From assembly GCF_029871235.1 (NCBI RefSeq), contig NZ_SSOM01000055.1:62001-126000 (forward strand): DNA of 64,000 nt, given 5' to 3'. Positions within the stretch are counted from its first letter, which is position 1. Each line of letters begins with the position of its first letter. The stretch comes from Pseudomonas sp. BN411 (GTDB taxonomy: Bacteria; Pseudomonadota; Gammaproteobacteria; Pseudomonadales; Pseudomonadaceae). The notes under the pieces are model-generated. The model saw only the letters and a list, made by a program, of their open reading frames with translations, was not told the origin of the DNA and did not search any database. Positions 41,575 through 43,456 of the stretch are shown in pieces. The position numbers and the translations under genes were made by a program.

Positions 41575-42177
41575 TCAGCGCTTTTCCGCCCGCTGGCGCA
41601 TTGCTTTCAGGGTATTGAAGGGCGCATCGACCACGAAACTGTTCGCCAGCCAGGATGGCACGCTTCCGCCCGGCTCGGTGTGCACCTGATAGGTCACTTC
41701 CACCTCCCCCGTTCCTTTGGGCGCCAGCTTCCAGAAGCCTTGCACCTCGGTCACCCGCACGAAGCCATCGGCTTCCGGCAGGTATTTGGGCACACCCTCC
41801 AGAACGCGCGTCACACTGCCATCAGCCCCGATCTCGGAGGTGACGTGCAGCACCGAGTCGCGCGGAGTGACCGGCCAGGGCGTATTGAAGCGGGTATAGG
41901 TCCAGCTCTGCGCCCCTTCGCTCTTGAGCAACTTCTGCTCCTTGCACTCGTGGATCCAGGTGCAGGAACCAACGACGTCTTCCTGCAAGGCACGCAGTGT
42001 GGCCATGTCGGCCTTCATTGTGACGACGCCGCGATAGGCCTTGTACTTGGACCCGGGCACCTCGCTCAAGAACACCTTGATGCCGTCCTCGTCCTTGGCC
42101 AGCTTCCAGTCCTCGGCCTGCACGGCGGATGCCGCCAGCAGCCCCAGGGCACAGAGCGCCGCAACCTTGATTCTCAT
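41575..42177 (-). CDS. Exported START/SRPBCC lipid-binding-fold protein
   Basis: 200 residues with a signal peptide (MRIKVAALCALGLLAASAVQA). The mature part (WKLAKDEDGIKVFLSEVPGS, then NTPWPVTPRDSVLH) is a START-type helix-grip fold that holds hydrophobic ligands. Ligand unknown. Position after gltA matches an uncharacterised P. aeruginosa gene. YkgJ-type gene lies 46 bases upstream on the same strand. Confidence 0.83.
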   Translation of the reverse strand: MRIKVAALCALGLLAASAVQAEDWKLAKDEDGIKVFLSEVPGSKYKAYRGVVTMKADMATLRALQEDVVGSCTWIHECKEQKLLKSEGAQSWTYTRFNTPWPVTPRDSVLHVTSEIGADGSVTRVLEGVPKYLPEADGFVRVTEVQGFWKLAPKGTGEVEVTYQVHTEPGGSVPSWLANSFVVDAPFNTLKAMRQRAEKR

Positions 42178-42223: not shown

Positions 42224-42481
42224 TTAGGCGGCCGAAGTTGCCTGCTCTAGCCAACCGAGCAGGCGGATGGCCTCTTCGCGGCTCTCTCCACAGACCTCGG
42301 GGTCCGCATCGAAATCGCCACAGACCGCCGGTCGGCGTGGGTCGCCGAATAGCTGGCAGAGGTTCTCCGCGGACAAGTGCAGGCAACGCTCACCCGCGGG
42401 CTTGCCCTCAGGCATGCCGGGCAGCGGGGAACTGATGGATGGAGCTATGCAGCAGGCGCCACAGCCTGGGCGGCAATGCAT
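42224..42481 (-). CDS. Small YkgJ-type cysteine-cluster protein
   Basis: 85 residues with six cysteines: CxxGCGACC-type opening at the N-terminus (MHCRPGCGACC), then ERCLHLSAENLCQLF and RPAVCGDF with a later Cys. This is the Zn- or Fe-binding YkgJ/UPF0153 pattern, with PRRPAVC at its end. Function unknown. It follows the GH31-domain gene by 45 bases. Confidence 0.85.
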   Translation of the reverse strand: MHCRPGCGACCIAPSISSPLPGMPEGKPAGERCLHLSAENLCQLFGDPRRPAVCGDFDADPEVCGESREEAIRLLGWLEQATSAA

Positions 42482-42526: not shown

Positions 42527-43384
42527 TTACTTGGGCAGAGCCGGCGTTGACACGACCCCAGGCACCGAAGATTGCAAGGCACGCAGCTCTTCGAGGCTAT
42601 CGCCCTTGTAGATATATGCCTTGAGCCGCCCCTCATGCACTTCAAGTCCGACACGCTGGGGGTCACGCAGATCGAACAACTGATAGGCACTGGACTGGCT
42701 CTGAAAGGCACGAAGGCGTGAGGTCACGAAAAAGGCCTGGGTCGCCGAAGAGCTCCAGCCCCCCTCCTCCTCCGGTCGGCTGCCAGCCGCCAGCACCGCC
42801 AGGCGCCGCCCCGACATGTCGTAGACGCCGGACACCTCGCCAAAACCGAAGATTCGCTCCCCCGCCTCACGACTCCAGCTCAGGTACAGTCGATTCAGCG
42901 CCGGGTCACCCAGCACCACGACCAGAATCAGACCGCGCTCGCCATCATCCTCCAAGGTCAGCACGTAGCTGCTCAAGGCTCCATCGGCACAGCGCAGTTG
43001 CCCCTTCAGCGAGAGCCTGCTCCCCAGACGCTCGAAGGCTTCCAGGCTCTGCTCGCGGCATAGCCGGTCACGAAGATCGTGCACTTCCCGCCCCGAATCG
43101 AGCAGACCAGGCACCGCCTGTCCCATTCCGGCCGCCAGAAATCCACCCTCGGCAGCCCAGAGCACCTTTTCCGGCCGCCCCTGCGGATAGACGATAAGGC
43201 CCCGGCCGCTCCACGACATCCGATAGCGGCCAAAGTCGAAATCCCGCGCAACCTTGAACGCCGGCGGCACATGCAGCGTCGCGATCACGGGCTCCTTGCG
43301 CCAGGCATCGATACCGCGCAGCGCTGCGATCGCCACCCCGAGCAGCACAATTGCCACAAACCACAATCCACGCCAGACGGCCAT
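42527..43384 (-). CDS. Membrane-anchored protein resembling only the N-terminal domain of GH31 glycosidases
   Basis: 285 residues. One N-terminal transmembrane anchor (residues ~5-24) and then a beta-rich domain. Residues 164-193 (NRLYLSW..ERIFGFGEVSGVYDMSG) fit the GH31 pattern seen in E. coli YihQ (NRIWLRL..DHIYGCGEQFSYFDLRG). Residues 74-112 and 216-285 also align in order with the YihQ N-domain. The protein stops at STPALPK, where the GH31 catalytic barrel should begin, and no barrel sequence lies downstream. It has no glycosidase active site, so a binding or scaffolding role is possible. Similarity was judged by eye from memory of YihQ. It is convergent with nothing and precedes the YkgJ gene. 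Confidence 0.7.
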   Translation of the reverse strand: MAVWRGLWFVAIVLLGVAIAALRGIDAWRKEPVIATLHVPPAFKVARDFDFGRYRMSWSGRGLIVYPQGRPEKVLWAAEGGFLAAGMGQAVPGLLDSGREVHDLRDRLCREQSLEAFERLGSRLSLKGQLRCADGALSSYVLTLEDDGERGLILVVVLGDPALNRLYLSWSREAGERIFGFGEVSGVYDMSGRRLAVLAAGSRPEEEGGWSSSATQAFFVTSRLRAFQSQSSAYQLFDLRDPQRVGLEVHEGRLKAYIYKGDSLEELRALQSSVPGVVSTPALPK

Positions 43385-43456
43385 GGCTCACCCCTTTCCT
43401 TGAGAATCAGCACCCATTAGGCTTGCGCGCTCCTCCCAGACTCAGAGCACCCGATC

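Follow-up and report, generated by a model that had tools for sequence, protein, structure and literature searches.

The window analyzed here is a stretch of 64,000 nucleotides from Pseudomonas sp. BN411 (contig NZ_SSOM01000055.1, positions 62,001 to 126,000). On its minus strand lies a gene for a 285-residue protein that corresponds to the N-terminal domain (N-domain) of YihQ-type enzymes of glycoside hydrolase family 31 (GH31) and stops short of their catalytic barrel (Table 1). We confirmed that both the open reading frame (ORF) and the orphan N-domain, which an initial annotation of this DNA had pointed out, are real. Residues 7-25 form a single hydrophobic segment with a mean Kyte-Doolittle value of 2.37, the highest 19-residue stretch beyond residue 40 reaching 1.35; the anchor was called from this hydropathy, the sequences and a helix in the structure model rather than by a dedicated topology predictor. 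The beta-sandwich core that follows is the part with the highest conservation and the highest prediction quality. Its two cysteines occur in all 32 aligned sequences, which fits a disulfide outside the cytoplasm, and a C109-C132 bond is likely. The initial annotation had also described a GH31 motif near residues 178-192; GFGEVSGVYDMSG is indeed present at residues 180-192, and the residual motif has other residues in place of the Q and F of the enzyme GEQF. The orphan gene and the YkgJ gene downstream probably share one transcription unit, and the START-domain protein has an apparent signal peptide, as judged by eye.

Table 1. Features of the orphan GH31 gene and its downstream neighbors, in window coordinates
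Feature	Positions	Strand	Basis
Orphan GH31 (YihQ-type) N-terminal domain protein, 285 aa, ATG start	42527..43384	minus	ORF, profile match, model, fold
Shine-Dalgarno-like AAGGAAAGGGG, six bases upstream of the ATG	43391..43401	minus	sequence
Signal anchor / transmembrane segment, residues 7-25	43310..43366	minus	hydropathy, sequences, model helix 2-29
Beta-sandwich core, residues 37-172 (W58, W76, GGFLAAG 80-86, LNRLYL 163-168)	42869..43276	minus	conservation, model
C109, invariant cysteine	43058..43060	minus	32/32 aligned sequences
C132, invariant cysteine	42989..42991	minus	32/32 aligned sequences
Residual GH31 motif IFGFGEVSGVYDMSGRR, residues 178-194	42803..42853	minus	alignment
Lost enzyme loop site (VQEQGxGRG...AGGDWW), about residues 200-214	42743..42787	minus	alignment
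Short tail, residues 267-285, replacing the linker into the barrel	42530..42586	minus	omega 0.391 (least constrained part), alignment
YkgJ-like CxxCxxCC protein (PF03692), 45 bases downstream of the orphan gene	42224..42481	minus	Pfam, locus comparison
START-domain protein (PF01852, 4.6e-10), downstream of the orphan gene	41575..42177	minus	Pfam

Residues 129-268 of the window protein matched positions 81-237 of the 683 in the NCBIfam profile PRK10426 (YihQ) with an E-value of 3.7e-10 and 38.8 bits, which is sub-threshold against a whole-enzyme cut-off of 553 bits. Alignment A1 contains 25 relatives, 8 of them N-domains from full-length enzymes and 17 copies that are orphan or broken; 22 of the 25 matched the same profile at E≤0.01, the best at 4.2e-48. 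Pfam gave no match to the window protein up to an E-value of 10. Searching the PDB with phmmer found the YihQ-type enzyme 5ohs/5ohy (whole-sequence E-value 2.7e-4, best single-stretch i-Evalue 0.0097), modest evidence of kinship from sequence. Profile match and fold comparison together identify an N-terminal beta-sandwich of the YihQ kind, and with the hydrophobic segment they bear out the anchored, YihQ-type N-domain first proposed.

The window protein carries no GH31 barrel (PF01055, with its nucleophile and acid/base Asp) and also lacks the C-terminal domain PF21365, which is present in L014 and L015. The initial annotation had seen no barrel downstream; none of 15 barrels found a match in the window by tblastn at E≤1, and PF01055 was absent throughout the window's genome at E≤0.001. 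As the catalytic residues of GH31 sit in the barrel, catalysis by the window protein is not expected. When the 15 barrels were compared with 16 orphan or broken loci, matches with E-values of 0.15-0.96 in L035, L047, L048 and L049 looked like chance, and real barrel pieces were found in L046. Across the window's genus PF01055 was unmatched in 15 of 18 genomes, the window's own included; the same search did pick up PF01055 in both genomes with a full-length gene, in the one with a broken gene and in 6 of 14 controls.

Every one of these 18 genomes has one match to the gene, and the N-domain is missing in none. The match is an N-domain only in 15, among them the window. In G008 and G009 the frame continues through the barrel and C-terminal domain to 763 aa (PF01055 E-values of 1.7e-36 and 8.3e-36; PF21365). 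In G017 (locus L046) the N-domain frame is open, and behind it come pieces of the barrel spread over more than one frame; the 453-residue barrel query has no match for its residues 1-143 and 297-379, and the PF01055 piece contains a TAG. Across the Pseudomonadaceae at least 35 of 398 genomes matched (best six candidates scored per genome). The 17 of these beyond the window's genus comprised 13 frames of 743-795 aa, one orphan (G130, P. aeruginosa PA7) and three weak matches (G276, G294 and G366, E about 1e-4), in which none of the locus neighbors was found and which were excluded from the comparison; L063 contains a different GH31 barrel. Matches were also found in at least 3 of 99 genomes of genus g14 (best 25 candidates), each in a frame of 755-759 aa, and in at least 10 of 293 genomes across the order (best eight candidates). 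Two of the ten were Pseudomonadaceae, and the other eight lay in frames of 725-787 aa (six) or of 562 and 384 aa. All candidates were scored in the searches of the window's genus, of the sister genus g9, of START in g9 and of PF01055.

Orphan and full-length loci have in common the gene order HIBADH-like, DUF486, GH31 or orphan, YkgJ, START and gltA, and orphan and enzyme are therefore the same gene. Exceptions are L039 and L040, without a DUF486 match; L036 and L047, in which DUF486 is split; L046, with an insertion before YkgJ; L044, which stops before YkgJ; and the stretches L044, L049 and L053, in which gltA was not found. Full-length relatives open with a similar N-terminal segment, of lower hydropathy in some (1.48 in L044, 1.92 in L052). 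The anchor is therefore ancestral, and did not arise instead of the barrel as the initial annotation had it. Orthologues of similar length, which that annotation had proposed to look for, stand beside the same YkgJ and START genes; they measure 277-288 aa in a clade of 12 (the window and L032-L042) and 244-277 aa in the genus's three others. With full-length GH31 genes at the same locus in other Pseudomonadaceae, the suspected descent from an enzyme holds, and we regard it as almost certain that the gene descends from an anchored YihQ-type GH31 enzyme and has lost its barrel.

Three large insertions or extra stretches were seen at these loci. In L046 about 4.3 kb (L046:8861-13165) separates the barrel fragments from YkgJ and holds two large same-strand ORFs, by eye a 744 aa GGDEF/EAL-like protein with a receiver and a 635 aa histidine-kinase-like protein. 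A stretch of about 4.3 kb of other DNA interrupts the DUF486 gene of G006 (L036:2484-6781), and L035 has about 3 kb more than its relatives, from YaiE to an exonuclease-like gene (L035:1689-4815).

Comparison of the clade of 12 with 15 enzymes showed that 71 enzyme-conserved positions were kept and 61 lost. The losses cluster in EEHRGA, in the Q and F of GEQF, in the VQEQGxGRG loop with the following AGGDWW..YAPVP, and in the linker into the barrel. In all 12 orphans the EQGxGRG loop is deleted and the Q and F of GEQF are replaced; at least 14 of the 15 enzymes share the EQGxGR residues, and there the loop presumably reaches the active site, as in GH31 structures. Retained positions are scattered over the core (W58, W76, GGFLAAG and LNRLYL, for example), and GFGE is largely retained. 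The gene ends 43-47 bases before YkgJ in 12 of 12 members, the pattern that a single deletion would leave.

For the clade of 12, which does not include L043, L047, L048 and L049, omega was 0.168 over 264 gap-free codons, with a log-likelihood (lnL) of -5877.8 against -6248.9 at omega 1 (run with kappa 3.2), a gain of 371. By segment, omega was lowest in residues 37-266 (0.11-0.15), higher in the anchor (0.27) and highest in the tail (0.39). About 51 stop-making changes would be expected on the tree without selection, by a rough count, and none was seen. Purifying selection has thus continued after the loss in the 12 sequences that share the truncation. The constraint is relaxed but real, and the window protein, as a homologue of an enzyme with its catalytic parts lost, is probably a pseudoenzyme kept by selection. 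The initial annotation had reasoned that relatives with an attached barrel would make this copy a simple truncation. Such relatives exist at the locus and the gene is truncated by descent, but with the short form in 15 of 18 genomes and 12 sequences under purifying selection it is not plain decay. We consider it very likely that the orphan is a functional non-enzyme, and its intact retention in many related species suggests a new, non-enzymatic job.

In our reading, an ancestor of most of the genus lost the barrel and C-terminal domain through a deletion at the domain boundary, and enzyme-conserved loops were shed, with the anchor, the beta-sandwich core and the two cysteines kept by purifying selection. 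The remaining protein would be an anchored, probably periplasmic, non-catalytic domain, located outside the inner membrane, that binds or scaffolds some other protein or lipid of the envelope; a candidate partner is the START protein, encoded in the same direction. As a whole, a barrel-less descendant retained as a non-catalytic anchored domain is the best explanation we have, and a reasonably probable one. The initial annotation had offered a sugar-binding or scaffold role. The loss of the enzyme-conserved loop, which presumably reached the former site, makes sugar binding there unlikely; scaffolding or other binding may be the mode of action, at a little less than even odds in our judgment.

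Several observations weigh against this explanation. The GFGE motif is gone from the outlying orphans L043, L047, L048 and L049, a loss that looks like decay in the last two. Omega is lower in the five neighbors of the same species (gltA 0.018, DUF486 0.026, HIBADH 0.044, YkgJ 0.053 and START 0.070, the DUF486 value coming from 9 sequences, with L036 excluded and L039 and L040 without a match), and lower in the N-domains of the enzymes (0.085; barrels 0.074; 15 sequences), than the 0.168 of the orphan. The structure model is moderately confident (pLDDT 67.4, below 50 in residues 177-240). Structural comparison with GH31, suggested in the initial annotation, gave a fold match to the N-domain, but Foldseek returned none at E≤0.001, and the VIA alignments had root-mean-square deviations of 3.2-6.0, some extending past the target N-domain to about residue 430. 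We found no partner for the orphan, no phenotype and no expression data. START is present in all 17 g9 genomes searched, 15 of them without a GH31 match; START therefore persists independently of the orphan, and any link between the two is one-sided.

Other explanations can be weighed against the same data. A lectin-like protein that still recognizes the sugar of the parent enzyme would suit a fold taken from a sugar enzyme and a GFGE largely kept in the clade of 12; all 12, however, lack the VQEQG loop, which presumably reaches the active site, together with the Q and F of GEQF, and the four outlying orphans lack GFGE as well, so that we think this unlikely. The frame might instead be the still-open upstream part of a broken, dying enzyme gene. 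Breakdown is visible in G017 (L046) and G094 (L085), the outlying orphans are eroded, the constraint is weaker than in the neighbors, and for L046, L047, L048 and L049 such a fate could hold. For the clade of 12 it is contradicted by the omega and the lnL gain of 371 over neutrality, by the absence of stops where about 51 were expected, by 12 of 12 frames open at 277-288 aa and by the short form in 15 of 18 species, and for the window gene we judge it improbable.

The 43-47-base gap to YkgJ across the clade could also mean that the frame is kept as a leader, or by translational coupling, for expression of YkgJ and START and not for its protein. Selection acts on the amino acids (omega 0.168), and YkgJ and START persist in g9 where no GH31 gene was found, which makes this a very improbable account. 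A split enzyme, in which the N-domain would act in trans with a barrel encoded elsewhere in the genome, found nothing in its favor; with PF01055 unmatched in 15 of 18 genomes it is contradicted at the sensitivity of that search, and we give it next to no credence.

The number of independent losses of the barrel is at least safely two, L046 and the rest. In the N-domain tree all orphans but L046 form one clade (support 94), and orphan monophyly was not rejected by the approximately unbiased (AU) test (p 0.36 and 0.56). A tree of seven neighbor proteins joins L048 to L044-L046 with support 100 and draws L049 toward the g9 enzymes with support 68, the latter on 504 of 2086 columns; several further nodes are weak (21-78). 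These placements would need at least four losses. On the N-domain, the neighbor-tree topology was rejected by AU and Shimodaira-Hasegawa (SH) tests alike; on L048 with L044-L046 the two tests disagreed, AU rejecting the grouping (p 0.0104) and SH not rejecting it (p 0.387). Either long-branch attraction among freed sequences or gene transfer could account for the conflict between the trees. The distance from stop codon to YkgJ is 107 bases in L048 and 104 in L049, against 43-48 in the clade of 12, L043 and L047, and these differing end points speak for separate losses. Tentatively, the gene may have been cut down to much the same form several times independently, in an ancestor of most of the genus, in the lines of P. 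otitidis and of P. aeruginosa/PA7, and now in G017. The N-terminal segment, the core and the cysteine pair would have been kept on every occasion, giving rise to a new family of envelope proteins without catalysis, their role already latent in the enzyme N-domain.

All 15 full-length relatives keep both catalytic Asp and, at the corresponding sites, the Q, Q, W and Y of YihQ. The YihQ residues with presumed roles are R301, W304, Y508, D405 and D472. After SFGx, all 15 have Gln where four solved sulfoquinovosidases have Arg, and the parent was therefore probably not a sulfoquinovosidase; to judge from these residues it was probably an uncharacterized anchored alpha-glycosidase. The full-length enzymes L044, L045 and L050-L062 form a clade with an N-terminal anchor or signal, Gln in place of Arg and, likely, an uncharacterized specificity.

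The closest known proteins are the YihQ-type sulfoquinovosidases (E. coli YihQ 5aed/5oht, Agrobacterium 5ohs, E. rectale 6pnr and BmSQase 8r56), from which the window protein differs in lacking the barrel, C-terminal domain and EQGxGR loop and in having the anchor and two cysteines. The L044, L045 and L050-L062 enzymes are its direct relatives, with a common locus, N-terminal segment, cysteines and fold core; unlike the window protein, they keep the barrel. In animals, 4F2hc and rBAT are anchored GH13-like non-enzymes in which a glycosidase fold on a single-pass anchor serves as a scaffold; they may offer an analogy in the way of working, but belong to a different family, keep the barrel, and no relation is claimed. 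The PA7 copy (L049/L074) has the short N-domain form between YkgJ and DUF486, more eroded than the window protein and with a less hydrophobic N-terminal segment (1.44). Its probable orthologue, judging from the printed first 30 residues and the gene order, is PA1578 / PA14_44100 of P. aeruginosa. In PMC6085387 the signal of PA14_44100/PA1578 was predicted to be Tat, was tested, and proved not to be a Tat signal. The open-access texts searched yielded no published function for PA1578, and the titles and abstract openings of that literature named no GH31 non-enzyme or orphan N-domain.

Whole enzyme, breaking gene and settled non-enzyme thus form a series at one locus in one bacterial family, which makes testable how an accessory domain can outlive the catalytic half of its enzyme. 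The locus also draws attention to a conserved but undescribed protein, carried in eroded form by P. aeruginosa PA7, that has no Pfam match and only a sub-threshold NCBIfam match to the enzyme model.

In the sister genus g9 the gene tends to vanish whole, unlike in the window's genus. Its 25 genomes comprise 8 full-length copies, the PA7 orphan, one fragment (G094) and 15 without a match. The G094 copy (L085:1501-1972) matches only enzyme residues 29-110 and 644-738, in pieces and with the middle deleted; it is a decaying gene with both ends left. START is present in all 15 genomes without a GH31 match and YkgJ adjoins it in all 15. DUF486 adjoins YkgJ in 13 of them (L095 and L104 have a partial DUF486 match only), and in those 13 no GH31 piece was found in the DUF486-YkgJ gap at E≤1e-3. 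L096 has the HIBADH-like gene next, and the L089 flank beyond YkgJ has no recognized gene. In 15 of the 17 g9 genomes searched (including L106-L108) a further START match lies elsewhere; it is more distant, with mostly 47-54% identity to the window's START protein, and in two genomes it is in pieces.
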